From contig CADBTW010000045.1 of NCBI GenBank assembly GCA_902797695.1, positions 84,426 through 148,425 on the forward strand: DNA of 64,000 nucleotides. The letters are read 5' to 3'. Below the pieces are notes generated by a model, which saw nothing but the letters and a program-made list of their open reading frames with translations, had not been told where the DNA came from and ran no database searches. The DNA is from an uncultured Sutterellaceae bacterium. Lineage in GTDB: Bacteria > Pseudomonadota > Gammaproteobacteria > Burkholderiales > Burkholderiaceae_F. The position numbers and the translations under genes are program-made. Numbering within the stretch: the first letter of the stretch is position 1; each line of letters begins with the position of its first letter. Shown piece after piece: positions 12,739 to 59,514 of this stretch.

Positions 12739-12823
12739 CACATTCAGGCGAAGAAGCGCCTCTCGCCTTATATTGTTCAACCGGAGGGAGGAAACGTTCC
12801 CGCCCGTATATGGAGCCATTCAA

Positions 12824-18964: not shown

Positions 18965-18967
18965 TTC

Positions 18968-38146: not shown

Positions 38147-38779
38147 TCACGATTCGGCCGGCTGCTCCTGAAGGGCCCCGGCTGCGTCAAGGGTCCGGAT
38201 GAATTCAGCCGGAGACGAGGTGTGAAGCTTCCGCATGGCGGACGCGCGGTGAATCTTCACAGTGTGCTCGCTGATTCCGAGTTCGAAGGCGATCTGCTTG
38301 TTGAGAAGCCCGTTCGCGACCCGGACCGCGACTTCCCGCTCGCGTTGCGTGAGAGAAGCCCAGCGGGTGCGCGCGGTCTCCTCCCCTTCTGTCCTCAGGC
38401 GCGCTTCCGCATCCTTCGCGATCGCCTTCCTGACCGCGGCGAAGAGCTTTGTCGGCTCGTCCGCCTTCGTGAGGAAGTCGCTTGCCCCCTGGCGGAAGGC
38501 CTGGACCGCCATGTCCATGTCGCCGTGCCCCGTGATGATGATGACCGGAAGCCCGATCGATCGCTCATCCATCGCTTCCTTGAGTTCCAGGCCGCTCATG
38601 CCGGGCATCCGGACGTCGAGCACGACGCAGCCCGGAATCCGGGGATCGTCCTTCTCGAGGAACTCGATCGCGGAAGCGTAGGTGACGACATTGAAGCCTT
38701 CGACCCTGAGGACAAAGGATTCGGACTCGCGGAAATCCGCGTTGTCGTCCACGATCCGTACGAGAGAAAGATTAGACAT
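38147..38779 (-). CDS. FixJ/TtrR-type response regulator
   Basis: Cytoplasmic transcription factor with an N-terminal receiver (acidic pair Asp11/Asp12, phospho-acceptor Asp55, Thr83, Lys105) and a C-terminal LuxR-type helix-turn-helix (LTQREREVAVRVANGLLNKQIA, then HTVKIHRASAMRKL). 210 residues. Its ATG lies within the end of the kinase gene (8-base overlap), so it is the partner of that kinase. The genes it controls are probably the reductase genes on either side. Confidence 0.9.
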   Translation of the reverse strand: MSNLSLVRIVDDNADFRESESFVLRVEGFNVVTYASAIEFLEKDDPRIPGCVVLDVRMPGMSGLELKEAMDERSIGLPVIIITGHGDMDMAVQAFRQGASDFLTKADEPTKLFAAVRKAIAKDAEARLRTEGEETARTRWASLTQREREVAVRVANGLLNKQIAFELGISEHTVKIHRASAMRKLHTSSPAEFIRTLDAAGALQEQPAES

Positions 38780-40696: not shown

Positions 40697-42157
40697 ATGG
40701 GGACGAGGATGCACATCTCGCGCCGCAGGGCGATCGTGGCAGGCCTAGGCGCAACGGCAGCCGTCGTTGCGACCGTCGCGGGCCTTCAGACGATATCGAA
40801 AAAAAGCGACTACCGGAACGATTACGACGTTGTGGTCGCGGGGGGCGGCGTCGCCGGATTCGCGGCCGCCCTGTCGGCCGCCGAGGCCGGCGCCCGGGTC
40901 GCTGTGCTTGAGAAGCTCCCCGCTCTCGCGAACGCCTATTTCGACGCCCGGAACATGGCGGTGGTCGATCCGCTTCGCGAGACGCCGCTCGGGATCCCCG
41001 ACTCGCTCGAGCGCCACTACCGGGACACTCTCGACGCGGCAGGCCCGACCGCGGATCCCGCGCTCGTCCGCATCATGGTCGAAGAGGCACCGACCGCCCT
41101 CCTCTGGATCGAGAGGCTCGGCATGGTGTTCTCGCCCACTCTCATCAATTCGGGGTCGCACTGGCCGCGAAGCCACGTCCCGATCGGGCCGGGCTACGTC
41201 CAGGTGCTCTCGAAGGCGGCTGCCCGTGCCGGGGTCGACACCTTCTTCTCCCGGGACGTGGTCGAGATTCGCCGCGGGAAGGGCGGACGAGCCGAATCGG
41301 TGGTCGCCCGGACCGAGGGCGGAACCCTCGAGCGCTGGATTCCGAAAAAGGCCCTTGTCCTCGCGGGGGGTGGCTTCGGAAGCAACCACGAGATGATCAG
41401 CCGTTTTGCGCCGGCGAAGGCGCGGTTCGAAAGCGCGAACGAGGCAGGTTCTTCAGGCGAGCTGCTCCTCGCGGCCGAACGGGCTGGGGCGGCGCTTGTC
41501 GACATGGACGCGGTCGAGGTTGTACCGCGCTCCAACCCGAAGGCCGGAATCCAGGCCTATCTCCACATCAACAATGCCCGCTACATCGTCGTGAATTCCC
41601 TGGGCAAACGGTTCGTCGCCGAGGACGCGCACCGGAACAAGATCGCCGAGGCCTTTTCCCGACAGCCGGGCGAGTTCGCCTTCGAAATCGGGGACGACAG
41701 GACCGTGAAGAGCTACTCGATGCTCATGCAGGCCGACCTCTGGAAGGCGATCGAGATCGGGGAAGCGTTCAAGGCGGACACCGTGGAAGAGCTCGCCCAT
41801 AAAATCGGCGTGCCGGTAGCCTCCCTTCGCAGGACCGTCGACGCCTACAACCGGTCGGTGAGGACAAAGCGGGACCCCCTCGGAAAGCTCCCGATCAACC
41901 TCTCGCACGAACTCCGCCAGCCGCCGTTTTGGGCCGCGAGGGTGCAGCAACGCATCCATCTGACGCCCGGAGGCCTCCGCATCAACACCGAAGCCCGGGT
42001 CCTCGATCAGTTCGGCCGACCGATTCCGGCCCTCTTCGCCGCAGGCGAGATCACGGGCGGAATCCACGGACGGAATTCGCTCGGGGGTGACAGCGTGACG
42101 GACGCGCTCGTCTTCGGAATGATCGCCGGAACGAACGCCGCGAGGGAAAAGGTCTGA
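40697..42157 (+). CDS. Tat-exported FAD-dependent fumarate-reductase-like flavoprotein
   Basis: Second flavoprotein reductase of the flavocytochrome c family, 486 residues, with a twin-arginine start (ISRRRAIVAG) and FAD motif VVVAGGGVAGFAAALSAAEAG near 50-70. The C-terminus has HLTPGGLRIN and FAAGEITGGIHGRNSLGGDS, closer to fumarate reductase than the protein at 36 kb. The arginine of the usual NRLGGN, which binds substrate in Fcc3, is serine here (NSLGG), while an extra Arg sits two positions earlier. No haem domain is attached. It is divergent from the sensor kinase (83-base gap), consistent with control by it. Confidence 0.87.
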   Translation: MGTRMHISRRRAIVAGLGATAAVVATVAGLQTISKKSDYRNDYDVVVAGGGVAGFAAALSAAEAGARVAVLEKLPALANAYFDARNMAVVDPLRETPLGIPDSLERHYRDTLDAAGPTADPALVRIMVEEAPTALLWIERLGMVFSPTLINSGSHWPRSHVPIGPGYVQVLSKAAARAGVDTFFSRDVVEIRRGKGGRAESVVARTEGGTLERWIPKKALVLAGGGFGSNHEMISRFAPAKARFESANEAGSSGELLLAAERAGAALVDMDAVEVVPRSNPKAGIQAYLHINNARYIVVNSLGKRFVAEDAHRNKIAEAFSRQPGEFAFEIGDDRTVKSYSMLMQADLWKAIEIGEAFKADTVEELAHKIGVPVASLRRTVDAYNRSVRTKRDPLGKLPINLSHELRQPPFWAARVQQRIHLTPGGLRINTEARVLDQFGRPIPALFAAGEITGGIHGRNSLGGDSVTDALVFGMIAGTNAAREKV

Positions 42158-45106: not shown

Positions 45107-47509
45107 ATGGATTTCTCTAAACTTCTGACGAAGCGCCGGACGTTCCTCCAGGGCGTCCTCGCGGCTTCCGCTCTCGGCATCGTGCCGCTCCCCTGCACCG
45201 TGGCGGTCGCGCGGGCAGTCGAGGAAATGGACAGCTGCGTCTGGTGCGCTTGCGTGATCAATTGCGGCCAGCGCTGTCCACTGCGGTGCATTGTGAAGAA
45301 CGGGCAGGTGATCCGGGTCGAGACCGACAACTCGCTTCCGGACAGCGCCGAGCCCCGTCTCCCCCGACAGATCAGGGCGTGCCAGCGCGGGCGCTCGATG
45401 CGGCAGAGGATCTATTCTCCCGACCGCCTGAAGTACCCGATGAAGCGGGTCGGGGAACGCGGCGACGGGAAGTTCGTCCGGATCACCTGGGACGAGGCCC
45501 TGAAGACGATCGCCTCCGAATGGAAGCGGATTCGCGAGAAGTACGGGAACGAGGCGATCTACTGGCAGTACTGCAGCGGCCAGCAGAGCCTCGTGAGCAG
45601 CCGCAGGGCATGGTGGCGCCTGATGAACCTCATGGGCGGCTATCTCAAGTACTACGGTTCCTACTCGACTGCGCAGCTCCGGCGCGCGATGCCGTTCACC
45701 TTCGGCGAGCGGCTCCAGGCCTCCCTCCCATCTGAGATCGCGAACGCGGACCTTTATGTCACGTTCGGGAACAATTCGAACGTGAACCGTCCGTCAGGCG
45801 GCGGCAAGGGCTACCAGATCGACCAGGCGATGGAGAAGCACCGCCCGAGGATGATCGTGATCGACCCGGTGTTCACCGACACCGCCTCGACCCGCGCGGA
45901 CCAGTGGATCCCGATCCGCCCGGGCACCGACGCCGCGCTCGTCAACGCGCTCGCCTATGAGTTCATCCGCAACAACTGGATCGACCAGGCGTTCCTCGAC
46001 AAGTACTGCGTCGGGTTCGACGAAAAGACGATGCCTGAGGGCGCCCCTGCCCACGCGGACTACAAGTCCTACATCATGGGGACCGGCTACGACCGCATCC
46101 CGAAGACCCCTGAATGGGCGGCGCCCATCACGAAGATTCCTGCTGAAACCATCAGGAAGCTCGCCTCCGAAATGGCGCACGCGAAGCGGCTCTTCGTTTC
46201 ACAGGGCTGGGGCACGCAGCGCCGAGCGAACGGCGAGCAGGCCTGCCGTTCGATCGCGATGGTGCCGATCCTCCTCGGCCAGATCGGGCTCCCCGGCACG
46301 AATAACGGCGACCACGAGGGCAACACCCCCTTCCCCGCGGTCTATCTCCCGACTGGGAAAAACCCGGTGAAGGAGAAGATTCCTGTCTTCATGTGGACTG
46401 ACGCGATCTTCCGCGGCCCCGAGATGACCCGCCGCACCGACGGCATCCTGGGGGTCGAAAAGCTGAAGGTCGGAATCAAGATGATCGTGAATTCGGGCGG
46501 AAACACGATGATCAACCAGCACTCCGAAACCTTGTGGACCGACAAGATCCTGAGGAACACGAAGAACTGTGAATTCATTGTGGTCTGCGACAACATGATG
46601 ACCCCGTCCGCGCGGTACGCCGACATCCTGCTTCCGGACACGCTCGGACCCGAAACGAACGACATCGCCTGCCAGGGCGGCAGCAACGGCGACGTCGCCG
46701 AGATGCTCGCGATCCAGAAGGGGATCGAGCCGCAGTTTGAGCAGCTCTCCTCCTGGGAGATCTGCAGGAGGCTCGCGAAGGAACTCGGACTCGAGGAGAA
46801 GTTCACCGAGGGCCGCAGCCAGATGGACTGGGTGAAGTGGTGCTACGAGGAAACCCGGAAAAAGGTTCCGCAGCTCCCCGACTTCGACACCTTCTGGAAG
46901 AACGGAATGGCGAAGGTCTGGGGCTATCGGAAAGACCCCGTCTGCCTCGGCGCCTTCAGGCGCGATCCGAAGAAGAACCCGATCAAGACCCCGTCCGGGC
47001 TGATCGAGATCTACTCGAAGAAGCTCGCGGACGAGACGCGCGACTGGATCCTTCCGAAGGGCGACGTCATCACCCCGATCCCGACCTTCTACAAGAGCTG
47101 GGACATGGAGGGCGACCCGAACGAAAAGAAGTACCCGCTCGAATGCTTCGGCATCCACGGGCACGGCCGCATCCACTCGACCTTCTACAACCTCCCGTGG
47201 CTGCAGGAACTGCACCCTGACGCCGTGATCATCAATCCGGTCGACGCGAAGCCTCGCGGGATCAAGGAGGGCGACATGGTGCTTGTCTGGAACGACCGCG
47301 GAACGCTCGAGCTTCCGGCGCGCGTCACGCCCCGCATCATGCCTGGCGTCATCACGATCCCCCAGGGCGCGTGGTTCACGCCGAAGAAGATCGGCGGCAG
47401 GGTGGTGGACGTCGGCGGCAACATCAACACGATCACGAGCCACCGTCCGTCCGCCCTCGCGAAGGGCAACCCCCAGCACACGAACCTCGTCCAGGTTCGG
47501 AAGGCCTAG
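45107..47509 (+). CDS. DmsA-type molybdopterin oxidoreductase, catalytic subunit
   Basis: Periplasmic terminal reductase of the DMSO reductase family using bis-MGD molybdenum. Tat signal TKRRTFLQG (8-16). An FeS motif region CVWCACVINCGQRCPLRC (44-61) with Cys92 would bind the [4Fe-4S] cluster. The YGSYSTAQ segment (183-190) matches DmsA, where the Ser before Thr (here Ser187) ligates Mo. 800 residues, close to E. coli DmsA (814). Followed by dmsB 24 bases later. S- or N-oxides are the likely substrates by this active site, but many Sutterella-type paralogues are uncharacterised. Confidence 0.88.
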   Translation: MDFSKLLTKRRTFLQGVLAASALGIVPLPCTVAVARAVEEMDSCVWCACVINCGQRCPLRCIVKNGQVIRVETDNSLPDSAEPRLPRQIRACQRGRSMRQRIYSPDRLKYPMKRVGERGDGKFVRITWDEALKTIASEWKRIREKYGNEAIYWQYCSGQQSLVSSRRAWWRLMNLMGGYLKYYGSYSTAQLRRAMPFTFGERLQASLPSEIANADLYVTFGNNSNVNRPSGGGKGYQIDQAMEKHRPRMIVIDPVFTDTASTRADQWIPIRPGTDAALVNALAYEFIRNNWIDQAFLDKYCVGFDEKTMPEGAPAHADYKSYIMGTGYDRIPKTPEWAAPITKIPAETIRKLASEMAHAKRLFVSQGWGTQRRANGEQACRSIAMVPILLGQIGLPGTNNGDHEGNTPFPAVYLPTGKNPVKEKIPVFMWTDAIFRGPEMTRRTDGILGVEKLKVGIKMIVNSGGNTMINQHSETLWTDKILRNTKNCEFIVVCDNMMTPSARYADILLPDTLGPETNDIACQGGSNGDVAEMLAIQKGIEPQFEQLSSWEICRRLAKELGLEEKFTEGRSQMDWVKWCYEETRKKVPQLPDFDTFWKNGMAKVWGYRKDPVCLGAFRRDPKKNPIKTPSGLIEIYSKKLADETRDWILPKGDVITPIPTFYKSWDMEGDPNEKKYPLECFGIHGHGRIHSTFYNLPWLQELHPDAVIINPVDAKPRGIKEGDMVLVWNDRGTLELPARVTPRIMPGVITIPQGAWFTPKKIGGRVVDVGGNINTITSHRPSALAKGNPQHTNLVQVRKA

Positions 47510-47533
47510 GGACAGCAACGGGAGACAATCGAA

Positions 47534-48145
47534 ATGACTCAGAAGGGATTTTTCATCGATACCACCCGCTGCGCCGGGTGCCGGACCTGCAGCGTCGCCT
47601 GCAAGGATCTCAACAACACGCCGAAGGGCATGAACTTCCGCCGCGTGATCGAGTACGAGGGAGGAACCTGGGAGAAGGATCCGAAGGGGTTCTGGCGCCA
47701 GGACGTCTTCGCGTACTATGTCTCGATCGGATGCAACGAGTGCGCGGACCCCGCCTGCGTGAAGGTGTGCCCGGTGAAGGCGCACTATAAGAGGACCGAG
47801 GACGGGCTCGTCCTCATCGACCAGTCGAAGTGCATCGGCTGCGGGGCCTGCGCGAAGGCCTGCCCCTACGGCGTCCCGCAGTTTGACGAGAAACTTCGGA
47901 AGATGCGGAAGTGCGACGGGTGCGTCGCGCGCACCTCGAAGGGCGGGCAGCCCGTCTGCGTCGAGAGCTGCCCGGAACGCGCGCTCGAATTCGGGGACAT
48001 CGAGGAGCTCCGGAAGAAGCACGGGAAGCTCGACGAGATCGCGCCGCTCCCCTCCGCGTCGCTCACGAAGCCGAGCATCGTGATCCGGCCCTGCCGCTCG
48101 GCGAAGCCGGTCGGCTTCAAGGGCGGCTCCGCCCACCGCTTCTAG
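47534..48145 (+). CDS. DmsB-type four-cluster FeS subunit
   Basis: Electron-transfer subunit paired with the preceding reductase. Four [4Fe-4S] motifs are present: CAGCRTCSVAC, CNECADPACVKVCP, CIGCGACAKACP and CDGCVARTSKGGQPVCVESCP. 203 residues, normal for DmsB; no own signal peptide, so it would be exported with the Tat-tagged partner. No dmsC anchor or TorD-like chaperone follows; a terminator comes 50 bases later. It must rely on an anchor encoded elsewhere, possibly that of the next operon. Confidence 0.9.
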   Translation: MTQKGFFIDTTRCAGCRTCSVACKDLNNTPKGMNFRRVIEYEGGTWEKDPKGFWRQDVFAYYVSIGCNECADPACVKVCPVKAHYKRTEDGLVLIDQSKCIGCGACAKACPYGVPQFDEKLRKMRKCDGCVARTSKGGQPVCVESCPERALEFGDIEELRKKHGKLDEIAPLPSASLTKPSIVIRPCRSAKPVGFKGGSAHRF

Positions 48146-49494: not shown

Positions 49495-52167
49495 ATGGAA
49501 AGAACAGCATTAACAAGGAGAAGCTTCTTCCGGGCAACGGCACTGACCGGCGCTGCCGCCGGACTCGCAGGGGCGATCCCGGGCGGGTTCGTGAAGGACG
49601 CCGAGGCCGCGGCCGAGAAGGCCGCGAAGAAGGACGAGACGAAGATCGTCAAGACCCTCTGCCGCGCCTGCATTCACAACTGCGGCGTCCTCGCGCACGT
49701 GAGGAACGGCCGTATCGTGAAGCTCGAGGGGAACCCAGAGTACCCGATGAGCAAGGGCTGCCTCTGCCCGAAGGCCCTCGCCGGCATCCAGGCGGTCTAT
49801 AACCCGATGAGGAACAAGTACCCGATGCTGCGCGTCGGAAAGCGCGGCGAAGGCAAGTTCCGTCGCATCAGCTGGAAGGAGGCGATCGACCTCCTCGCGA
49901 AGAAGCTGATGGAGGCGAAGAACAAGTGGGGCGCCGAGTCCGTGATCGTGACGACCGGCGGCGGCGGCAACCCCGCGTTCCGCGGCGTCCGGCGCTTTGC
50001 GAACGCTTTCGGTACCCCGAACTTCTGGGAGCCGGGGTGCGCCCAGTGCTTCCTCCCCCGCACCGTGGCCTACGGCCTCATGTACGGCGGCCCGACCACG
50101 TCGATCGCTGACGAGAACTCGCTCGAGATCTACAACCCGAAGACCCCGATGAAGTCGATCGTGCTCTGGGGCACCGATCCTTCCTACAGCTGCCCCGCGG
50201 GCGGCGGCCAGGCGCTCTCCACGCTCCGCGCGAAGGGCGTGAAGACCGTCGTGATCGATCCGCGCTGGGCGGGCGACTCCTCGCACGCCGACGTCTGGCT
50301 TCCGATCCGTCCCGGCACCGACGTCGCGCTCGAGCTCGGCTGGGTGAACTACATCATCGCCCACAAGCTCTATGACGAGAAGTTCTGCTCGGAGTGGACG
50401 AACCTCTCCTACCTCGTCAACACGAAGACAAAGATGATGATGAAGGCGACGGAGCTCGACCCGAAGGCGAAGGCTGACGAGTACGTCGTCCTCGACGGGA
50501 AGACCCCGCGCGTCAATCCCTATCCGTTCGACGCGAAGATGAAGATCACGCTCGACGGCGAAGTCGCGATCAAGGGGACTCTCTACAAGACCGGCTTCCG
50601 GCTCCTGAAGGAGCGCGCGGCCGAGTGGACGCTTGAGAAGACCGGCAAGGTCTGCCACCTCGACCCGAAGATGATCGAGAAGGCGATCAAGATCTACGCC
50701 GAGGGCCCGTCCGGCATCTCGCTCGGCGTCGCGACCGACCAGTACGAGCAGTCCGTGCAGGCAGCCATGGGGTCCGTCATCCTGAACGGCCTCATGGGCT
50801 ATGTCGAGAAGCCCGGGACGCTCATGAACCGCAACCCGAACTCGGGCGTTTCCCCGGCTGGCTCACTCGCCACCCCGGCCTCCTACCTCCTCCCGAAGGG
50901 GCAGCTGAAGAAGCGCCTCGGCGGCGACGACTTCAAGGGCCTCTACCAGTGGGACGCGGCGCAGCCGCCTGCGGTGCTTAAGGCAGCCCTCACCGGGAAG
51001 CCCTACCAGCCGCACATCTGGATCGAGCGCTCCGGCAACAAGTTCGCGGTCTGCGGCAACTCCCCCTCCTGGGTCGCCGCCCTGAAGAAGTTCGACTTCG
51101 TCGTGCACATGTACATGTACCCGACCTCCTTCTCGATGTACGCGGATCTCCTCCTCCCGGCGACCGAGTGGCTTGAGACGAACATGCTGATCCAGTCGCT
51201 CAACATGATCTTCGCCCGCCAGGCTGTCACCCACACCTGGGAAACCGAGGACGAGACGCTCTTCTGGGCGAAGCTCGGCAAGAAGCTCGCCTCGATGGGC
51301 CACGAGAACATGAAGCGCGCCTGCGACCCGAAGGTGATGGGCAAGGACCTCGCCTACTGGAACTCGATGGAGGAGCTCCTCGACGGGCGCCTGAAGAACG
51401 TCGGCCTCACGTGGAAGGAGATGCTCGCGCACCACAATCCGTACACCTGGATGCCGTACGACAAGTGGAACACCTACGGGGTCTACCTGCAGAAGGACCC
51501 GAAGACCGGAAAGCCGAAGGGCTTCCACACGCACTGCAAGAAGCTCGAGCTCTACGGCGAATGCTTCATCACGCTCGGCCGCACCGGCAAGCCCTTCGCG
51601 CTTGACGAGAACCGCCCGGTGAAGAAGGACTACGATCCGCTCCCCTACTACACGGAGCCTGCCGAGTCCCCGAACCGTCCGATCGCGAAGAAGTACCCGC
51701 TCGTCCTCACGTCCGGCCGTGTGCCGTGGTTCCATCACGGCACGCTCCGGAACGCCCCGTACCTCCGCGAGTCGTACCCGGTGCCTGAACTCTGGATCAC
51801 GCCTGCCGACGCGAAGAAGGCCGGCGTCGCGAACGGCAACTGGGCGTGGATCGAAAGCGCCCGCGGCAAGACCCAGGGCAAGGTCCGCGTGACGAAGGCG
51901 ATCCCGCCTGGAGTGGTCTACATGGAACGCTTCTGGTTCCCTGAGACGCTCTACACGCCGACCCACGGCTTCCGCGAAGCGAACGTGAACGTCCTCACGA
52001 AGAACGACCCGCCGTACAACGACGTCGTCGGGACGTACACCCTCCGCGGCTTCCAGGTCCGTGTCTCGAAGGCTGCCGGCGCCCCGAAGGGCGTCTGGAC
52101 GAAGCCCGAGCAGTTCAAGGCCTGGCTGCCGAAGCCGACTGACCGTACCAAGAATCCGGAGCTCTAA
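49495..52167 (+). CDS. Molybdopterin oxidoreductase of uncertain substrate, probably Cys-ligated
   Basis: Periplasmic Mo-bisMGD enzyme, 890 residues. Tat signal LTRRSFFRA (6-14). [4Fe-4S] motif Cys56-x2-Cys59-x3-Cys63-x27-Cys91. At the position where DmsA has its Mo-ligating Ser, this protein has FWEPGCAQCF (Cys182, Cys185), so a cysteine ligand is likely, as in thiosulfate/polysulfide reductases and acetylene hydratase. It is not a close DmsA. Its context (FeS subunit, anchor, TorD chaperone, LysR regulator) shows a membrane-bound respiratory enzyme. Candidate roles include sulfur-compound reduction or reductive dehydroxylation of catechols, but the substrate cannot be read from sequence. 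Confidence 0.85.
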   Translation: MERTALTRRSFFRATALTGAAAGLAGAIPGGFVKDAEAAAEKAAKKDETKIVKTLCRACIHNCGVLAHVRNGRIVKLEGNPEYPMSKGCLCPKALAGIQAVYNPMRNKYPMLRVGKRGEGKFRRISWKEAIDLLAKKLMEAKNKWGAESVIVTTGGGGNPAFRGVRRFANAFGTPNFWEPGCAQCFLPRTVAYGLMYGGPTTSIADENSLEIYNPKTPMKSIVLWGTDPSYSCPAGGGQALSTLRAKGVKTVVIDPRWAGDSSHADVWLPIRPGTDVALELGWVNYIIAHKLYDEKFCSEWTNLSYLVNTKTKMMMKATELDPKAKADEYVVLDGKTPRVNPYPFDAKMKITLDGEVAIKGTLYKTGFRLLKERAAEWTLEKTGKVCHLDPKMIEKAIKIYAEGPSGISLGVATDQYEQSVQAAMGSVILNGLMGYVEKPGTLMNRNPNSGVSPAGSLATPASYLLPKGQLKKRLGGDDFKGLYQWDAAQPPAVLKAALTGKPYQPHIWIERSGNKFAVCGNSPSWVAALKKFDFVVHMYMYPTSFSMYADLLLPATEWLETNMLIQSLNMIFARQAVTHTWETEDETLFWAKLGKKLASMGHENMKRACDPKVMGKDLAYWNSMEELLDGRLKNVGLTWKEMLAHHNPYTWMPYDKWNTYGVYLQKDPKTGKPKGFHTHCKKLELYGECFITLGRTGKPFALDENRPVKKDYDPLPYYTEPAESPNRPIAKKYPLVLTSGRVPWFHHGTLRNAPYLRESYPVPELWITPADAKKAGVANGNWAWIESARGKTQGKVRVTKAIPPGVVYMERFWFPETLYTPTHGFREANVNVLTKNDPPYNDVVGTYTLRGFQVRVSKAAGAPKGVWTKPEQFKAWLPKPTDRTKNPEL

Positions 52168-52169
52168 CC

Positions 52170-52763
52170 ATGGCGCAGAAAACACTCGTAATTGACCTCG
52201 ACCGCTGCACCGGATGCGGTGCGTGCGAAACCGCGTGCAAGATGGAAAACAACGTGGCGCTCGGCGTGTACTACAACAAGCTCCACGAAATCGGGCCGGT
52301 CGGCACCTTCCCGAACCTGAAGGGCTATTGGCTCCCGCACGTCTGCCAGCAGTGCCGCGACGCACCCTGCGTCGCGGTCTGCCCGACCCACGCCACCTAC
52401 CAGACGAAGGACGGGCAGGTGCTGATCGACAAGAAGAAGTGCATCGGCTGCAAGCTCTGCATGAAGGCGTGCCCGTACGGCGCCCGCAGCTTCAACGCCG
52501 AACTGAAAGTTGTCGAGAAGTGCACGCTCTGCCATCACCTGCAGGAAGTGGGCGAGAAGCCCGCATGCGTCAAGGCCTGCTGCGCGCACGCCCGGTTCTT
52601 CGGCGACATCGATGATCCCAACAGCGATGTCTCGAAGGCGATCGCGGCTGCCGGCAAGGAGAATGTCCACTCCATGCCTGACCACGGCAACCATCCTTCG
52701 GTCCGGTACATCCTGCATAAGAAGCAGGGCGACTGGCTGAAGAACCCGCCGAAGATGATCTAA
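52170..52763 (+). CDS. DmsB-type four-cluster FeS subunit of the second reductase
   Basis: 197-residue ferredoxin-like subunit with four [4Fe-4S] motifs (CTGCGACETAC, CQQCRDAPCVAVCP, CIGCKLCMKACP, CTLCHHLQEVGEKPACVKAC). Starts two bases after the catalytic gene. It links the catalytic subunit to the membrane anchor encoded next. Confidence 0.93.
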   Translation: MAQKTLVIDLDRCTGCGACETACKMENNVALGVYYNKLHEIGPVGTFPNLKGYWLPHVCQQCRDAPCVAVCPTHATYQTKDGQVLIDKKKCIGCKLCMKACPYGARSFNAELKVVEKCTLCHHLQEVGEKPACVKACCAHARFFGDIDDPNSDVSKAIAAAGKENVHSMPDHGNHPSVRYILHKKQGDWLKNPPKMI

Positions 52764-52815
52764 GGCTCTTTCCTTAGAATCTAGGCGTTGTCAAAAAGAG
52801 GGAGGAAGGATCGAG

Positions 52816-53634
52816 ATGAGTGCTATTGCTTGGAACCTCGTCCTCCTCGCGGGGGCTGCCTCCGCGGGGGCTGGGGCGGCAGCTGCGGCCGGAGCCGGTG
52901 AAACGCTTGGCGGCGCTTCAGGGCCCGATCTCCGCAGAGTCGCCTCCTCCTCCCTTATCCTTCTGCTCCTCGCGCTCGCGATCGGGATCCTGTCGCTCGG
53001 GCATCCCTCGATGGCGCTTACGATCCTCTCGAACCCGGGATCCGGGCTTTTCTGGGAGCTCTTCGCGTTCGGAGCCTCAATTCTTCTTTCGGCCGCCTAC
53101 GTGGCGGCCCTCTCGAAGGGCGCGGCCGAGAGCACCTGCCGGACGGCGGGAACGCTTTCGGGTTCCTTCGCGCTCCTTCTCATGCTTTTCATCGGGCTCA
53201 CGAGCTACATGCCGTGGAGCCCCGTCTGGGGAACGTGGACGCTCGCGGTCCCCTTCGTGCTCTTCGCGGTGCAGGGGGCCGTGTTCGTCCGTATCGGCAC
53301 CGTTGATGCTGGCCCCAGGACCCGGAAGTTTGCGTCGATCGCGCCTGCGGTGACGCTCGCCTCGATCGCGATCTACCTCTCGGTCCTTGCCGGGAGCAGC
53401 GACGAAACCGCGGCTGCCGCGCTTTCGGAAGGGATTTCCGGAAGCTTTGCCGCCGGCTTCTGGGGACTCGTCGTCATCGCCGGAATCGCCGTCCCCGCCC
53501 TCCTTCCGTTCCTCAGGAACATTTCCCCGAAGATCGCCGGACTCGCCGGACTCCTACTCTCCGCGCTCGGCTGCGGCGCCTTCCAGTGGTTCCTCGGGGC
53601 GCTCGGAACCGTCGAGGCGGTACCCGTCTACTAG
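52816..53634 (+). CDS. DmsC-like membrane anchor subunit
   Basis: Integral membrane protein, 272 residues with about eight hydrophobic helices, matching DmsC in length and helix number but low in sequence conservation. Position after the A and B subunits gives the assignment. It would oxidise menaquinol and pass electrons to the FeS subunit. Very Ala/Gly-rich first loop. AGGGAGGAAGGATCGAG precedes the ATG. Confidence 0.75.
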   Translation: MSAIAWNLVLLAGAASAGAGAAAAAGAGETLGGASGPDLRRVASSSLILLLLALAIGILSLGHPSMALTILSNPGSGLFWELFAFGASILLSAAYVAALSKGAAESTCRTAGTLSGSFALLLMLFIGLTSYMPWSPVWGTWTLAVPFVLFAVQGAVFVRIGTVDAGPRTRKFASIAPAVTLASIAIYLSVLAGSSDETAAAALSEGISGSFAAGFWGLVVIAGIAVPALLPFLRNISPKIAGLAGLLLSALGCGAFQWFLGALGTVEAVPVY

Positions 53635-53655
53635 TAAAAACAAAAGGGCAGTCAA

Positions 53656-54336
53656 ATGGATGAACTCGAAGCCATCTTCTCCAACCGCGAAAGCCTCTAC
53701 GCGATGCTCTCCCGGCTCCTCATCCGCGAGGTGGACGCGGAGTTCCTCGCGGCGCTGAAGGCCACCTCCTTCCCCGAGGACGCAGGGGTTGCGGAGCTCA
53801 CCGAAGGCTACCGGATGCTTTCAGGCTACGTGAAGAACCCGCCTGAGAACGCGCTCGAAGACCTCGCGGTCGACTACGCCGGCGCGATCCTCGGGGCTGG
53901 CCACGCCGCGCAGACCGAGGTCGCCTGCCCCTACGAATCGTTCTACACGTCGCCCTCGCGCCTCCTGCAGCAGGACTCGTGGGAAAAGATGCGGAACCTC
54001 TGCCTGCTGAAGGGCTACGTCCTGAACGACCGGGGGCTCCTAGAAGACCACCTGGGGCTCGAGCTCCAGTACATGGGGATCCTCGTCCGCGAGAGCCTCG
54101 CCGCGATACGCGCGAAGGACGAGGCCGAGCTCCGCAGGAATGTCGGCGAAGAGGTCACGTTCCTCGAAACGCACCTCCTCAACTGGGTGCCCTCCTTCAC
54201 GCGGGACCTGAGGAAATTCGCGAAGGAGCCGCTCTACCAGGCGACAGCGAGGATCCTTGACGGGTTCCTGCCGCTTGACCGCGAGATGCTCCTCTCGCTC
54301 TCCAAGCCCGGGGAGGACGCGGCGGAATCGAAGTAG
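53656..54336 (+). CDS. TorD/DmsD-family maturation chaperone
   Basis: Cytoplasmic chaperone that binds the Tat leader of the reductase and aids Mo-cofactor insertion. 226 residues, all helical, with the family pattern EDHLGLELQYMG (about 132-143), ETHLLNWVPSF and the earlier LAVDYAGAILG and YESFY segments. It sits 21 bases after the anchor gene and ends the first half of the operon at a strong terminator. Confidence 0.9.
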   Translation: MDELEAIFSNRESLYAMLSRLLIREVDAEFLAALKATSFPEDAGVAELTEGYRMLSGYVKNPPENALEDLAVDYAGAILGAGHAAQTEVACPYESFYTSPSRLLQQDSWEKMRNLCLLKGYVLNDRGLLEDHLGLELQYMGILVRESLAAIRAKDEAELRRNVGEEVTFLETHLLNWVPSFTRDLRKFAKEPLYQATARILDGFLPLDREMLLSLSKPGEDAAESK

Positions 54337-54381: not shown

Positions 54382-54416
54382 GGCCCGCCTGAGCAGAAAA
54401 TGCCGGCGGGCCTTTT
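54382..54416 (+). terminator. Terminator after the TorD-like gene
   Basis: GGCCCGCC (54382-54389) pairs with GGCGGGCC (54405-54412), then TTTT. The following napG-like set must use another promoter or read-through. Confidence 0.85.
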
Positions 54417-54619: not shown

Positions 54620-55240
54620 ATGGAAAAAGAAAAGGAGAAAGGACCCGCGATCAGCCGACGGAACGCGGCGCTCGGCGCCGGGGCCGCAGCGTTCATGCTG
54701 GCGCTCGGTGGAGCCGCGAAGGCCTGCGGGAGCCGCCCCCTCGTCCGCCCGCCGGGAGGCCAGGACGAATCCCAGTTCCTCGCGAAATGCATCCGTTGCG
54801 ACCGTTGCCGCTCGGTATGCCCGCTTGACGGGATCGGCGTCGGAACGATCCTTGACGGGCTCGTGAACGTCCGTGTTCCCGTGATGGACTTCCAGCACGG
54901 GCACTGCAACTTCTGCCGCAAGTGCATCGAGGTCTGCCCCACCGGGGCGCTCGAGGACTTCAAGGGAAAGACGACGAACATCGGGCTTGCCCGCCTCACC
55001 GAATCCTGCATCGCGCTCAGGACCGGCGCCTGCACCGTCTGCAAGCAGAAATGCCCCTACCACGCGATCACGCTGAATGACGCGAAGGAGCCGATCATTG
55101 ATCCGGAGAAGTGCAACGGGTGCGGGCTCTGCGTGAAGGTCTGCCCCGCCCTCAAGTACCAGTCGTTCGGAAACAACGCGGTGCTCGGGATCGAGGTCGT
55201 GCCCCGCGAAGCTGCGGAAAAGAAGGAGGGAGCGGAATGA
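54620..55240 (+). CDS. NapG-like periplasmic ferredoxin (Tat)
   Basis: Exported FeS electron carrier, 206 residues. Tat leader ISRRNAALGAG (about residues 10-20), then RPPGGQDESQFLAKCIRC as in NapG. Four [4Fe-4S] motifs: CIRCDRCRSVCP, CNFCRKCIEVCP, CIALRTGACTVCKQKCP and CNGCGLCVKVCP. In nitrate reductase systems NapG accepts electrons from the membrane protein NapH. Here the next gene encodes a NapH-like protein, but napA is absent, so the acceptor is probably one of the Mo-reductases. The ATG at 54620 begins the real gene; the frame is open earlier without sense. Confidence 0.88.
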   Translation: MEKEKEKGPAISRRNAALGAGAAAFMLALGGAAKACGSRPLVRPPGGQDESQFLAKCIRCDRCRSVCPLDGIGVGTILDGLVNVRVPVMDFQHGHCNFCRKCIEVCPTGALEDFKGKTTNIGLARLTESCIALRTGACTVCKQKCPYHAITLNDAKEPIIDPEKCNGCGLCVKVCPALKYQSFGNNAVLGIEVVPREAAEKKEGAE

Positions 55241-57453
55241 AGCCGAAGACATCAAGGCTGCGTGTCCTCACCGCGGCCGCATTCCTCCTCCTCACGGCGC
55301 TCGGGCTCGCCTTCCACACGGGCTGGGGGACGCTCTCATCCTTCGGGATCGGCGAGATCGCGTCGATCTGCCCGCTCGGCGCCCTTGAGACGCTTGCGGC
55401 GGGCCACTCGATCGCGCTCCGGGGGCTATGCGCTCTCGTCGTGTTCATCATCTTCACGATTCTCCTCGGGCGGGTTTTCTGCGGCTGGATGTGCCCTGTG
55501 CCGCTCGTCCGCAGGCCCTTCGGGAAAAAGAACCGCGCGAAGGCTGATCCTCAGGAGCAGCCGGTTTTCGTGAAGCCCTACGTTCCGAAGGCCGCGGCCG
55601 ACGGAAGCAGGGCGGCAGGCGCCGCGAAGGGGACGACCAGTTCGCCCGACGCCCTCCCCTCTTCCCGTTCAAAGAACTCAGACGTCGTTTCCCAGACCCC
55701 GTTCTGGGTGCTCGGAGGGGCGATTGCCTCGAGCGCCGTCTTCGGGTTCCCGGTCTTCTGCCTCATCTGCCCGGTCGGGATCACGTTCGCGATCGTGATC
55801 GGGGCCTGGCGGCTCTTCGCGTTCGCAGACCCCGCGTGGTCGCTGCTCTTCTTCGCGGCGGTGCTCGCCGTGGAACTCGTCTTCTTCCGCCGCTGGTGCC
55901 ACACGTTCTGCCCGCTTGGCGCCGTGATCTCGCTTGTCGCTCGGCTCAACCGGACGTTCAGGCCTCGGGTCGACAAGTCGGCGTGCCTCAAGGCGTCGAA
56001 GGGTCTCCCCTGCCGGGCCTGCGCCGAAGCGTGCCCCGAGGGGATCAACCTCACGGCGCCGCTCGACACGGCGACGCTCTCCCGGTGCACGAAGTGCCAC
56101 GAGTGCTCGGACGCGTGCCCCGCCGGCGCGATCTCGTTCCCCTTCAGCCTCGGATCCAAGGCTTCCGCTGGGGCCCGCACAATGCCGGGACGCGTAGCTG
56201 CGAAGTTCGTGCCGGCTGAAGAGAGAAAGAACTCGTTCACCGAAGCCGAGCTCCCGGTGTCCGACGCTGACGCCGCCCGCGAAGCGTCCCGCTGCATCTC
56301 CTGCCGCGAATGCGTCACGAGCTGCCCGCTCGGGAATCCGATCCCCGAGTGGCTTCGCGAAGTGCGGGAAGGAAGACTTAAGAAAGCGGCGGAGCTCCTC
56401 ATGACCCCGGGAACGATGCCGGAAGTGACGTCCCGGATCTGCCCGAAGGAGCGGCTCTGCGAAGGGCACTGCTCCATGGAGGGGGCCGGGGGCGGTATCT
56501 CGGTCGGCTCTCTTGAGCGCCTCGTCGCCGACACCGCCTTCCGGAAGGGCTGGATCCCGAGGCCCCGCGGGGGTGCGACGGGCCTCAGGGCCGCCGTGAT
56601 CGGCGCAGGCCCCTCAGGGCTCGCGTTCGCGGACACGCTCGCCTGCGCCGGCGCACACGTCACGGTCTACGACCGCAACCCCGAGATCGGCGGCCTCCTC
56701 ACCTACGGGATCCCCGCTTTCAAGCTGCCGCGCGAAATCGTGAAGCAGCGCCGCGTGCTCTACGAACGGCGCGGCATCCGGTTCGAACTCGGGAAGGAAG
56801 TCGGGAAGGACGTGAGCCTTGAAGCCCTCCTCAGTTCGTTTGACGCGGTCTACGCGGCGCCGGGCGCCTGGCGCCCCATCGCGCTCGCGGTCCCCGGGGC
56901 CGGTTCGAATGGCGTCCTCCAGGCGCTTCCCTTCCTCTCCGAACACCCTGACGTGAAGGGGAAGGCGGTCCTCGTCCTCGGCGGCGGCGACACGGCTGTC
57001 GACTGCGCCCGGACCGCCGTCCGTCTGGGGGCCTCGTCCGTCACGATCGCCTACAGGCGCGGGGAAGAACGGATGCGGGCAGAGAAATCCGAAGTGATCC
57101 TTGCCCGAGAGGAAGGGGTCCGCTTCCGGTTCAATTCCGACCCGGGCGAAGTCCTTTCCGAAAACGGCACTGCTTCAGGCGTCCGCTTCAAGGACGGTTC
57201 TACGGAACCCGCTGCGGCGATCATCGTCGCGTTCGGCTTCACCGGCACCGCGTCCGACTGGCTCAGGGCACCCGGGATCGAATTCGGGCCGAAGGGTGAA
57301 GTATCGGCTCCTGCCGGTCAGACAGGCAACCCGAAGATCCTCGCGGGCGGCGACGCCGTCCGGGGCCCCGCGCTCGCAGTCTACGCGATCGCTGACGGCC
57401 GGGCTGCGGCGCTCTCGCTCCTCAGCCGCCGGAAGTCTTCTGGGAAGAAATAG
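55237..57453 (+). CDS. Fusion: NapH-like membrane FeS protein + GltD-like NAD(P)H oxidoreductase
   Basis: 738 residues in two modules. The first 310 or so are NapH-like: helices with ICPLGALE, FCGWMCPVPL, CLICPVG and CHTFCPLGAV, then two cytoplasmic [4Fe-4S] motifs (CLKASKGLPCRACAEACP, CTKCHECSDACP). A GltD/NfnB-type module follows: FeS cysteines (CISCRECVTSCP, ICPKERLCEGHC), FAD loop AAVIGAGPSGLAFADTLA, NAD(P)H loop VLVLGGGDTAVDCARTA and C-terminal ILAGGDAVRGP. The stop/start overlap with napG (ATGA) shows coupling. As NapH keeps its C-terminus in the cytoplasm, the flavin module could feed NAD(P)H electrons into the membrane. I know no characterised protein of this design. Confidence 0.87.
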   Translation: MKPKTSRLRVLTAAAFLLLTALGLAFHTGWGTLSSFGIGEIASICPLGALETLAAGHSIALRGLCALVVFIIFTILLGRVFCGWMCPVPLVRRPFGKKNRAKADPQEQPVFVKPYVPKAAADGSRAAGAAKGTTSSPDALPSSRSKNSDVVSQTPFWVLGGAIASSAVFGFPVFCLICPVGITFAIVIGAWRLFAFADPAWSLLFFAAVLAVELVFFRRWCHTFCPLGAVISLVARLNRTFRPRVDKSACLKASKGLPCRACAEACPEGINLTAPLDTATLSRCTKCHECSDACPAGAISFPFSLGSKASAGARTMPGRVAAKFVPAEERKNSFTEAELPVSDADAAREASRCISCRECVTSCPLGNPIPEWLREVREGRLKKAAELLMTPGTMPEVTSRICPKERLCEGHCSMEGAGGGISVGSLERLVADTAFRKGWIPRPRGGATGLRAAVIGAGPSGLAFADTLACAGAHVTVYDRNPEIGGLLTYGIPAFKLPREIVKQRRVLYERRGIRFELGKEVGKDVSLEALLSSFDAVYAAPGAWRPIALAVPGAGSNGVLQALPFLSEHPDVKGKAVLVLGGGDTAVDCARTAVRLGASSVTIAYRRGEERMRAEKSEVILAREEGVRFRFNSDPGEVLSENGTASGVRFKDGSTEPAAAIIVAFGFTGTASDWLRAPGIEFGPKGEVSAPAGQTGNPKILAGGDAVRGPALAVYAIADGRAAALSLLSRRKSSGKK

Positions 57454-57465
57454 CAAGGGAAGGAA

Positions 57466-58536
57466 ATGGAAGAAAAGGAAAAGGAAGGAAACGGGGAAAA
57501 GCCCCTCATCCCCGGACTTCAGCCGGGGCTCCCCGGAATTGATCCGGTCAGATGCCTCAGGCACCGCCACAAGCTCTCGGGGTGCAACGCCTGCGTCAGG
57601 GCGTGCCCTGCCCGGGCAATCCGCGTGGCGGAGGGCGGCGTCGCCATTTCAGACGCCTGCACGAAGTGCGGCGCCTGCGTAGGTGCCTGTCCCGCCGCGG
57701 CACTTGATCTCGCAACAAGCCCTGACGACCCGATTCTCAGTGCGGCCTCCGGCGACACGGCGCGTTTCCGTTGCGAAAAGGCGAAGGCGGACACGGACGA
57801 CGCTGTTCTCCTCCCCTGCGTTTCAAGGCTCGACGCCACTCTTATCCTGAAGCTCGCCTCGGACGGCGTCAGGAAATTCGTCTTCACGACGGGCCGATGC
57901 GCTGGGTGCCCGAGGCGCTCGCCTTCGAGGCCTGTCGACGCCGTGATCCGTGAAGCGCGTGAAGCCGCGGCGATCTCCGGCACCGCGCTCGAATTCGAAA
58001 CCGAGGAACGGGCTTCCGCCCTCGATCTCGGGAAACGCGCGCTCTTCGGTCGCATCCTCGGCCGCATAAAGGATCCGCAGGCGGGCGAAGGGAAGCCGGA
58101 GGAACTCACGGCCCTTCCCCCGCCCTTCATCCCCGAGAAGAAGACCGGGCTCGTCCGAGCCCTCAACTCGCTTCTCTCCGGAAAGGAACCGGCCCTCAGC
58201 CGCTCTCCCCTCTTCACGGAGCCCGTGATCAGCGAGGAAGCCTGCAGCGCGTGCTCGATCTGCGCCGACACCTGTCCCACCGCGGCGCTCGTCGCGGAGG
58301 ACACGGAAACGGCCTACCGGATCACGTGCGAGCCCGCGAAATGCATCGGCTGCGGGCTCTGCCGCGACATCTGCTTCATGCACGCCGTGAAGCTTGTCGA
58401 ATCCGACCCGCTTTCCTCCGTGCTGAAAGGCAAAACAAAGACGCTTCTCGAGCGGAAGAAGGATTCGGGGGACGGATCTATGGAGTGGACGGGTGAGCCT
58501 GGCCAGATCCCGGACATTCCGGTTTACGACACCTGA
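57466..58536 (+). CDS. Four-cluster ferredoxin with central HdrA/MvhD-like segment
   Basis: Cytoplasmic FeS protein, 356 residues. Two [4Fe-4S] motifs at the N-terminus (CNACVRACP near 40, CTKCGACVGACP near 65) and two at the C-terminus (CSACSICADTCP near 260, CIGCGLCRDIC near 295). Between them LLPCVSRLDATLILKLASDG and TTGRCAGCP recall the small FeS subunits that couple to Hdr/Mvh systems. It begins 12 bases after the NapH-GltD fusion and is the last gene of the set. It may exchange electrons between the flavin module and soluble donors. Partner and direction are unknown. Confidence 0.75.
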   Translation: MEEKEKEGNGEKPLIPGLQPGLPGIDPVRCLRHRHKLSGCNACVRACPARAIRVAEGGVAISDACTKCGACVGACPAAALDLATSPDDPILSAASGDTARFRCEKAKADTDDAVLLPCVSRLDATLILKLASDGVRKFVFTTGRCAGCPRRSPSRPVDAVIREAREAAAISGTALEFETEERASALDLGKRALFGRILGRIKDPQAGEGKPEELTALPPPFIPEKKTGLVRALNSLLSGKEPALSRSPLFTEPVISEEACSACSICADTCPTAALVAEDTETAYRITCEPAKCIGCGLCRDICFMHAVKLVESDPLSSVLKGKTKTLLERKKDSGDGSMEWTGEPGQIPDIPVYDT

Positions 58537-58559: not shown

Positions 58560-58581
58560 CCGGGGCCTCACGCGGCCCCGG
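58560..58581 (+). terminator. Hairpin after the ferredoxin gene
   Basis: Perfect CCGGGGCC-6-GGCCCCGG stem followed by AATCCTTT. It overlaps the 3' end of the convergent TetR pseudogene. Confidence 0.55.
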
Positions 58582-59153
58582 AATCCTTTGGGATCGCGGG
58601 GGACGGGGCGAGGGCGTTGAGAATGTACTCAAGCACCCTTTCCTTCTCTTCCTCCGCCATGGTGTCGAGGTCGAACTTGTGGATGAAGAAAATGCCTTCC
58701 ATCGCGAGGACCGCGGTCATCACAGGCACCCTCTTCTCTTCCGGCATCGCCGCGACCCTCTCCTTCACTTCCCTGTACCAGTCGCGGACCGGCTGCATCA
58801 GTTCCGGATCGTCAACCTGTTCCGAAAGAAGCTGTACCCCGACACGCGCCCAGCCGTGGTTATCACGGTTGAAGTCGCGGAACCACGAGACGTAGCCCGG
58901 CATCAGGGTATCCGCCGAGGAACCGATGAAGCGGGCCTCGTGCTCCTTCTGCCCCGACCTGATGTGCTCCGCGTAGTCTTCGAGAAGCGCCTTGTTGAGT
59001 GAGCGCTTCGTCTTAGGTGACGGCGCCCTTCGAGAGATGGGCGACCTCTGCCACGTGGTCCATGTTGAGGGAGGAAATCCCCTCCTGCTGCACGATGAAA
59101 CGGGCAGCCGCGATGATTGACGCGCGCGTCCGAAGGGCTTTTTCTGAAGGCAT
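58568..59153 (-). pseudogene. TetR-family regulator broken by an apparent 8-bp deletion
   Basis: The N-terminal half (ATG at 59153, GAGG seven bases upstream) reads as a TetR DNA-binding domain up to VAHLSKGAVT, then hits TAA at 59013-59015. The next frame resumes at once with KTKRSLNKALLEDYAEHIRSGQ and continues through a TetR ligand domain to 58568. TetR proteins normally have a tyrosine-histidine-phenylalanine between these parts; one base instead of nine remains, so eight bases are missing at about 59015. The recognition helix end is lost and the protein is cut at about 46 residues. It probably once regulated the neighbouring redox genes. Confidence 0.85.
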
Positions 59154-59514
59154 CCTTTGTCCTCTGCCGGTTTCCGAGCTGGAGATTGAAGTTCCGGCCT
59201 GAGCCGGAGGGCGATCGACGGCGAAGCGAGATATTCCCTGAATACGCCGGGGACCGGCCAGACGAGGGCTTGGCTGATTCCATTGATTCGCCCCCGTTCG
59301 CACGCCGGTTTCGTGTCTTTTATTTTACATTCCGAACATCTGTCTTCAGATCGCGAAGGAAGTGCCCGATGTCCTGCTCCGCCTCAAGGGACGGAAGACT
59401 TTCCTCCTCCCCTGGAGCCGCAATGTGTTACATCTTCCGGCGGTCCTCGAGTACTCCTCCGGATATAACTAGGGGATTCAGGAGAACCCCTTTTTTGACA
59501 AAGGAAAACAACAA
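59154..59514. other. Intergenic region before rubrerythrin-like gene
   Basis: 361 bases between the TetR pseudogene and the rubredoxin/rubrerythrin gene. No gene seen. A terminator-like hairpin (59471-59496) is the only clear element. Confidence 0.4.
59471..59496 (+). terminator. Terminator-like hairpin in rubrerythrin leader
   Basis: AGGGG (59471-59475) and CCCCT (59487-59491), with adjacent TT/AA pairs across a bulge, followed by TTTTTT. It ends 18 bases before the ATG, so it would act as an attenuator or shield the ribosome site. Confidence 0.45.

Follow-up and report, generated by a model that had tools for sequence, protein, structure and literature searches.

Fusion of a NapH-type iron-sulfur membrane protein with a GltD-type FAD/NAD(P)H module beside a molybdenum oxidoreductase operon in Sutterellaceae

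Introduction

Can a NapH-type membrane protein take up electrons from NAD(P)H on its cytoplasmic side and hand them on to a periplasmic reductase? The question is raised by one gene in a 64,000-nucleotide stretch of DNA from an uncultured Sutterellaceae bacterium (assembly GCA_902797695.1, contig CADBTW010000045.1, positions 84,426 to 148,425); this whole stretch is called the window below, and all coordinates refer to it. The gene encodes a NapH-type membrane iron-sulfur protein joined to a GltD-type module for flavin adenine dinucleotide (FAD) and NAD(P)H, here named H-GltD. A first-pass annotation, made from the sequence alone, had proposed that NAD(P)H electrons could enter NapH through this module and reach periplasmic molybdenum (Mo) reductases without quinone. 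The role of NapG and NapH is itself disputed: the accessible text of PMC6195509 sets a quinol dehydrogenase function against one in enzyme maturation. A NapH joined to an NAD(P)H module offers a single protein for a direct test of cytoplasmic electron entry.

NapH-type and GltD-type sequences share one open frame

The H-GltD gene (55237-57453, + strand) is a single open frame of 738 amino acids: NCBIfam and Pfam matches assign residues 1 to about 305 to the NapH type and residues 331-721 to the GltD type, which confirms the two-part frame described in the first-pass annotation. Pfam detected Fer4_5 (two stretches), Fer4_7 (283-366), Fer4_20 (331-438) and Pyr_redox_2 (452-721), the last two at 100.9 and 90.5 bits, above their thresholds of 25.8 and 26.1. 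The best stretches of the NCBIfam models were 149-304 for NapH, 318-659 for the GltD type (TIGR01318) and 221-730 for AegA. Their curated cut-offs were not reached: TIGR01318 scored 409.7 bits (cut-off 482.95), the NapH models NF007013 and TIGR02163 scored 78.9 and 74.5 bits (cut-offs 234 and 213), and the AegA and YgfT models 393.7 and 346 bits (cut-offs 1003 and 1154). The ATG start codon at 55237 overlaps the TGA stop codon of a napG-like gene (54620-55240), and the resulting ATGA overlap agrees with the coupling to a NapG-like ferredoxin of the twin-arginine translocation (Tat) type that had been noted before.

An AlphaFold2 model of H-GltD was obtained with a mean predicted local distance difference score (pLDDT) of 79.2 and a predicted template modelling score (pTM) of 0.78. 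In a Foldseek search, the best PDB chains, matching the GltD half, were Xfn (5vj7), NfnI (5jca and 5jfc) and glutamate synthase (6s6s), with target template modelling scores of 0.83-0.85. By sequence, the best PDB match was the glutamate synthase beta subunit (252.8 bits), followed by Xfn (235) and NfnI (217). The NapH membrane half was not covered by any of the sequence or Foldseek matches listed.

An assembly or frameshift artefact was considered as the source of the fusion and rejected. The family search yielded 17 matches at E <= 1e-100 in 16 of 67 genomes, corresponding to 17 distinct fused copies, some of them from isolates. These copies share about 41-54% identity with the window protein and keep both halves joined; together with the structure model, this confirms the fusion as genuine and beyond chance.

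Conserved motifs and predicted topology

In an alignment of 35 rows, fused and unfused, the NapH half shows 15 cysteines that never vary, so this half has not decayed. Both CX3CP motifs (C82/C86 and C221/C225, each with its following Pro) are invariant in these rows, as are the eight cysteines of two C-terminal [4Fe-4S] motifs; CX3CP is defined as a NapH motif in the accessible part of PMC5928378. The NapH half has four hydrophobic segments. Lysine and arginine together make up 3/7 of the N-terminal residues, 13/76 of the second loop and 6/33 of the stretch that follows the last helix, but 0/32 of the first loop, a pattern that fits both NapH termini inside. The GltD half, and with it the FAD/NAD(P)H chemistry, is thus predicted to face the cytoplasm; the charge bias of the loops bears out, as a prediction, the orientation assumed earlier.

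The partner encoded just upstream, here called G (54620-55240, + strand), is a NapG-like Tat-type ferredoxin of 206 amino acids with four cluster motifs. Pfam found Fer4 domains in it, the NapF, NapG and MauM/NapG models match below their cut-offs, and the sequence ISRRNAAL was read by eye near its start.

Motifs of the GltD half were counted in the 17 distinct fused copies (one cut by a contig end, leaving 16 evaluable beyond the clusters) and in 11 free GltD proteins. The GltD cluster cysteines are retained in all 17 copies, and the FAD motif GxGxxG and the motif GxGxx[AT] in 16 of 16; a C-terminal GD is found in 15 of 16. The window protein itself carries GAGPSG, GGGDTA, YRR and GGD. The first cluster motif has the ferredoxin-like form CxxCxxCxxxCP in 17/17 fused copies, owing to a two-residue deletion found in none of the 11 free proteins, all of which have CxxC-x4-CxxxCP. 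The stretch NMPGS, present in 11/11 free GltD, is missing from the fused copies. The description of the module as a complete GltD holds for Fer4_20, Pyr_redox_2 and the FAD and NAD(P)H motifs, but the module is non-canonical in its shortened first cluster motif.

A molybdenum oxidoreductase operon lies directly upstream

The first-pass annotation had stated that napA is absent. This is literally correct, but it left out an oxidoreductase operon of the Mo-bis(pyranopterin guanine dinucleotide) (bisPGD) type at 49495-54336, immediately upstream. Gene A (49495-52167, + strand) encodes the catalytic subunit of a Tat-type Mo/tungsten-bisPGD oxidoreductase of 890 amino acids, with matches to PF04879, PF00384 and PF01568 and the sequence TRRSFFRA, read by eye, close to its start. 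Gene B (52170-52763, +) encodes a PsrB/DmsB-like ferredoxin subunit (PF13247 and others), and gene C (52816-53634, +) a DmsC/NrfD-like membrane anchor. The window member of C has no family match of its own; in an alignment of 14 rows DmsC was matched by six and NrfD by five, and C has 7 hydrophobic segments, its relatives 7-8. Gene D (53656-54336, +) encodes a maturation chaperone of the TorD/NarJ type (PF02613), with a TorD model score of 69.6 bits, below the cut-off of 132. The C anchor probably provides the A-type reductase with a quinol route already.

Subunit A scored below the curated cut-offs of all 25 NCBIfam families listed (best PhsA, 255.5 against 694 bits; napA models, 132 bits against 904-931), and among these families it is not assignable to PhsA, DmsA, TtrA, ArrA, NapA or another characterised subfamily. 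In the PDB it is closest to acetylene hydratase (2e7z) and thiosulfate reductase (2vpw), at some 180 bits each, which does not settle the substrate. A role as catechol dehydroxylase or as another Eggerthellaceae enzyme was also considered, with no evidence for either.

D and the napG-like gene are separated by 283 bases; in relatives the arrangement ranges from overlapping frames to a gap of 346 bases. The gap contains a terminator-like hairpin followed by a U-run (54382-54416, + strand; -22.9 kcal/mol, z -3.39, equalled by 1 of 200 shuffles), which was missed by a simple terminator scan with a loop limit of 8. The promoter and terminator scan gave 0 promoters and 9 terminator-like sites, not above shuffled sequence. 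Given this gap and its hairpin, A-D and the genes from G to the downstream ferredoxin may be separate transcripts in this genome.

The downstream ferredoxin

The gene Fd (57466-58536, + strand) begins 12 bases past the end of H-GltD and encodes a ferredoxin of 356 amino acids. Its four cluster motifs, reported in the first-pass annotation, are borne out by 16 cysteines invariant in 24 aligned rows, window member included. That description did not cover an additional middle domain of the family, which is FlpD/MvhD-like: 13 of the 24 members match PF02662 with E <= 1, the best of them at 7e-6, but that of the window does not. C103, C118, C145 and C148 are each conserved in 90% or more of the 24 rows. 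The FlpD reading rests on Pfam and on these conserved cysteines; fold searches with Fd gave weak, poorly superposed matches. No export signal was seen by eye, and NapF does not appear in the part of the NCBIfam matches that was listed (25 of 66).

FlpD/MvhD is an electron adaptor to HdrA. The presence of such a domain in the Fd family suggests that the ancestral NapG-NapH-Fd module also drew electrons from a cytoplasmic donor, in which case the GltD fusion would be a change of donor. As a separate observation, the four near-invariant middle-domain cysteines, which are missing in one relative (L047), perhaps form a fifth cluster.

Distribution of the fusion and of its gene neighbourhood

When named genomes were scanned for the NapH half, 280 relatives were obtained, the best 80 of which were kept: 11 fused and 69 unfused loci. 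Neighbours were counted up to 9 kb on each side of the NapH locus. The fused loci are all from Sutterellaceae (one named just 'Burkholderiales'); they are largely the same proteins as those of the family search and are not counted twice. The isolate Turicimonas muris YL45 has two fused copies (L048 and L054). Among 61 related genomes, both halves were matched in six (G000, G001, G007, G027, G034 and, with two loci, G028). The order A-B-C-D-G-H/GltD-Fd was found in G001, G027, G034 and both G028 loci; the G007 contig begins near D.

The unfused loci belong to Coriobacteriia, other Actinomycetota, Sporomusa, metagenome-assembled genomes of Bacillota, Sulfurospirillum and Telmatospirillum. NapG is encoded on the same strand at every unfused (69/69) and fused (11/11) locus, D at 60/69 and 11/11, A at 45/69 and 10/11, and Fd at 18/69 and 7/11, respectively. 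Two of the four fused loci lacking Fd are cut by a contig end; the other two (L058 and L059) lack it despite more than 7 kb of downstream sequence. Counting either strand, an A-type match (score at least 35) lies near 69 of the 80 loci. Since the scores span 44 to 1864, the match is in many loci a distant Mo oxidoreductase. It is missing at the remaining 11. Sequence extends 8 kb in both directions at just two of these, L056 and L112, which are D-G-H sets with no recognised A within that distance on either side.

Eggerthellaceae have reused the NapG-NapH module widely. Eggerthella sinensis (G091; loci L049, L068, L118 and L119) has about eleven NapH-half matches, some of them beside differing A subunits. 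At the Sulfurospirillum operon L045 (5725-6683, + strand) two consecutive B-type matches were seen; the ferredoxin subunit may be split or duplicated there.

Wider scans scored the top 2-4 candidates per genome, and a diverged fusion could miss their cut-offs. In 246 Coriobacteriia (E <= 1e-84) two matches were obtained, both to NapH only and neither fused. Ten were obtained in 300 Burkholderiales (1e-97): two fused, both in the family, and eight to GltD only. Across 398 genomes of the phylum (1e-88) there were matches in 78, and only that of the window begins before query residue 221. Four phylum matches starting at 221-261, in open reading frames (ORFs) of 665-685 amino acids, were read as AegA-type ferredoxin-GltD proteins; two starting at 235-252 pass through many stops.

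Origin of the fusion

The 12 fused rows form one clade (support 100/96) in the NapH tree of 81 rows. The 17 fused rows, two of which are the window itself, form one clade (100/100) in the GltD tree of 49 rows, sister to free Burkholderiales GltD at 96/96. A single fusion event is the simplest reading of both trees. Since some fused rows have long branches, the order of branching inside the fused clade is unsure.

Six of six free GltD relatives inspected (five from Burkholderiales and one from Telmatospirillum, which lies outside the sister group) adjoin a gltB gene whose product of about 1,490-1,620 amino acids has all four glutamate synthase domains. No gltB was found beside H-GltD, and the largest ORF listed in the window has 890 amino acids. 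Coriobacteriia, Sporomusa, Sulfurospirillum and Telmatospirillum have this gene set with no GltD in it, and GltD therefore joined an older operon; by this comparison NapG-NapH(-Fd) was associated with a Mo operon before the fusion arose.

Two other sources of the GltD half were considered. Fusion with an operonic neighbour gltD found no support: the sole GltD-labelled ORF scoring at least 30 bits at the 69 unfused loci reaches 45 bits (L094). A copy of the organism's own gltD-like gene (L002) was ruled out by the GltD tree.

Respiratory background of the host genomes

The genome that contains the window is 94% complete, and neither NuoH nor an Nqr/Rnf membrane subunit was found in it; type II NADH dehydrogenase (NDH-2) was not searched for, here or in the family genomes. 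The same searches detected NuoH in 11 and Nqr/Rnf in 4 of 14 control genomes. Of the 67 family genomes, 23 have NuoH and 7 have Nqr/Rnf, but both are absent from every genome with the fusion (0/16 for each). The distribution of NuoH (23/51 unfused against 0/16 fused genomes) gives a Fisher p of 0.0005, uncorrected for kinship, and whole genera of the family are without NuoH. The genome of the window has a UbiA-type prenyltransferase gene, and the accessible parts of PMC11022602 and PMC7765368 report menaquinone-6 (MK-6) and methylmenaquinone-6 (MMK-6) in some Sutterellaceae. A quinone pool is therefore likely in the host.

Proposed electron route and alternatives

From the gene content, fusion, motifs, ancestry and synteny observed, we infer cofactor and nucleotide binding, topology, direction and the individual electron steps as follows. 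The locus would be a periplasmic Mo-reductase operon in which A is the catalytic subunit, B the ferredoxin, C the quinol-type anchor and D the chaperone, accompanied by an auxiliary NapG-NapH-ferredoxin module older than the fusion; in Sutterellaceae the NapH of this module would have acquired a glutamate-synthase beta module. NAD(P)H would reduce the FAD of the GltD part, whose two [4Fe-4S] clusters would relay the electrons to the pair of [4Fe-4S] clusters on the cytoplasmic side of NapH; from there they would cross the membrane part of NapH, be taken up by NapG on the outer side and finally arrive at the reductase. Entry of NAD(P)H electrons into NapH in the cytoplasm, supplying the A-type reductase, is the most likely course. 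We give a probability of roughly 0.4 to the reading in which this path through GltD, NapH and NapG complements the quinol route as a second input, driven by NAD(P)H, and as a redox outlet. Exit through NapG is favoured because NapG is present at every locus, and a parallel quinol route because the C anchor is encoded. NAD(P)H input, as first proposed, gains partial support from the FAD and NAD(P)H motifs, the predicted cytoplasmic position of GltD and the Tat-type Mo oxidoreductase alongside. The more specific proposal is doubtful: NapH would be a transmembrane iron-sulfur wire with entry at GltD and exit at NapG, using no quinone and serving gut Sutterellaceae without complex I as a direct NAD(P)H outlet to the periplasmic Mo reductase; in its unfused ancestors the corresponding task would have fallen to the FlpD-containing ferredoxin, with a different cytoplasmic donor.

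Several points weigh against an NAD(P)H-driven second input. We know of no demonstration that NapH takes up cytoplasmic electrons, and outward electron flow would cost membrane potential. The standing models, themselves disputed in the accessible text of PMC6195509, have NapH working with quinol and NapG. In Parasutterella muris (G034, L050) the G frame is open for just 161 amino acids, which puts the export of NapG there in doubt. Other points concern the GltD half, whose end branch in the window protein (0.93, against 0.02-0.34 in the free sister group) indicates fast evolution. The basic pair, which we take to hold the 2'-phosphate of NADPH, is RR in 11/11 free GltD; among the 16 evaluable fused copies it is RR or RK in 11, reduced to one Arg in 4 and replaced by HH in 1. 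Thus the NAD(P)H motif, intact in the window protein (YRR), is relaxed in relatives. One fused copy has GE in place of the C-terminal GD. The Glu at window position E427, presumably a ligand of the second GltD cluster, is kept in 11/11 free GltD and in 11/17 fused copies, the window included. We read these changes as drift in nucleotide preference with flavin and cluster chemistry retained, and use of NADH in place of NADPH is possible in some fused copies.

In another reading the GltD half would be giving up its redox role and persist as a scaffold or regulator. The relaxed NADPH-phosphate site, the partial loss of the cluster-ligand Glu, the long branches of the fused clade and the two fused loci without a nearby Fd (L058 and L059) all point that way, but the complete retention of the GltD cluster cysteines and of the FAD glycine motif makes such a loss very improbable. 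Electrons might also run in reverse: quinol or a periplasmic donor would deliver them by way of NapH to NAD(P)+, perhaps with Fd taking part in confurcation, partly as in Nfn enzymes. The top Foldseek matches of the GltD half, Xfn and NfnI, are enzymes that couple NADPH and ferredoxin, and the Fd family carries the FlpD/MvhD-like domain. By sequence, however, the glutamate synthase beta subunit leads both of them in the PDB search, Nfn being absent from the GltD tree, and menaquinol is much too oxidising to reduce NAD(P)+ unless energy is supplied; we regard reverse flow as improbable.

The absence of NuoH and Nqr/Rnf from all 16 fused genomes is what would be seen if GltD and NapH together formed an NAD(P)H:menaquinone oxidoreductase in place of complex I and Nqr, with the C anchor oxidising menaquinol for the reductase. 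The UbiA-type gene, the menaquinones of some Sutterellaceae (accessible parts of PMC11022602 and PMC7765368) and the DmsC or NrfD matches of the C relatives are consistent with this arrangement. NapG would then idle, yet it accompanies NapH at 80/80 loci, and 28 of 44 NuoH-less family genomes do without the fusion, a count that also weighs against an NAD(P)H-driven second input; the search behind the NuoH and Nqr/Rnf result did not extend to NDH-2 or to other NADH:quinone routes. The menaquinone arrangement is thus unlikely. A role in reductive maturation is rather unlikely as well: G, H and Fd, with chaperone D, would hold the reductase, or its clusters, in the reduced state while it is assembled or activated, with NAD(P)H entering through GltD as the reductant. 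The cytoplasmic four-cluster NapF acts in NapA maturation according to the accessible text of PMC10609526, and that of PMC6195509 considers whether NapGH takes part in maturation. D is frequent on the same strand at fused and unfused loci alike, and A is missing at 11 of the 80 loci, though just two of these (L056 and L112) are flanked by 8 kb of sequence in each direction. NapF is also said to require NapH for membrane attachment. On the other hand, chaperone and reductase genes are commonly co-located regardless, a flavoprotein dedicated to assembly seems costly, and the exported NapG fits a cytoplasmic step poorly.

Other features of the window

A second GltD-type module occurs at 17168-20992 (- strand), where the catalytic subunit of an [FeFe] hydrogenase (598 amino acids) adjoins a 674-amino-acid protein with NuoF-type 4Fe-4S, Fer4_20 and Pyr_redox_2 domains. 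Upstream of the A-D operon, a second Mo-bisPGD oxidoreductase of 800 amino acids is encoded with a ferredoxin subunit (45107-48145, + strand). Past the operon, a TetR-type regulator (58568-59303, - strand) is found as two pieces in different frames, the C-terminal PF17937 at 58568-58903 and the N-terminal piece at 59013-59303; relative L036 has an open frame of 193 amino acids with a similar start (12798-13379). A histidine kinase joined to a phosphonate-binding-type domain (38772-40613, - strand) is divergent from an FAD_binding_2 flavoprotein gene (40697-42157).

Comparison with known systems

The locus points to a possible means of NAD(P)H disposal in gut Sutterellaceae without complex I or Nqr/Rnf markers. 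It also connects the NapG-NapH-ferredoxin module with the many functionally unassigned Mo reductases that Eggerthella and Gordonibacter encode (accessible part of PMC4257093). A search for a prior description of the family in another role found none: in the literature searched, which excluded preprints and most subscription journals, no title or start of an abstract names a NapH-GltD fusion.

As in NapGH(F) of Wolinella succinogenes and Escherichia coli, a Tat-type NapG adjoins a four-helix NapH with CX3CP and two [4Fe-4S] motifs, and a ferredoxin with four cluster motifs is nearby. In contrast to those systems, no napA adjoins here, NapH carries GltD and scores 78.9 bits against a NapH cut-off of 234, and the Fd family, unlike NapF, has an FlpD-like middle domain. 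The A-B-C-D layout, with its Tat-type start, ferredoxin B, anchor C (through its relatives) and TorD-type D, is that of the complex iron-sulfur molybdoenzyme (CISM) reductases Psr, Phs and Dms, from which it differs in the scores of A, below all 25 NCBIfam cut-offs listed, and in the extra NapG-NapH-Fd module.

The GltD half shares Fer4_20, Pyr_redox_2, the FAD/NAD(P)H motifs and the fold with the glutamate synthase beta subunit, Nfn/Xfn, dihydropyrimidine dehydrogenase (DPD) and AegA/YgfT, and differs from other GltD modules in having CxxCxxCxxxCP in place of CxxC-x4-CxxxCP as first cluster motif and no GltB partner. Reuse of the GltD module is known in DPD, Nfn and AegA, and AegA and YgfT likewise join ferredoxin clusters to GltD, with an N-terminal ferredoxin domain only; the accessible part of the account in PMC8097209 contains no membrane-joined GltD. 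For the NapH homologue AF0143 of Archaeoglobus fulgidus, reduced ferredoxin in the cytoplasm has been proposed as the electron donor; unlike H-GltD, AF0143 is described in the accessible text of PMC4543118 without FAD or FMN (flavin mononucleotide) domains and is flanked by genes for cytochrome oxidase subunit II, with no Mo operon. H-GltD combines the known GltD and NapGH modules in a single membrane protein, encoded next to an operon for a Mo reductase.

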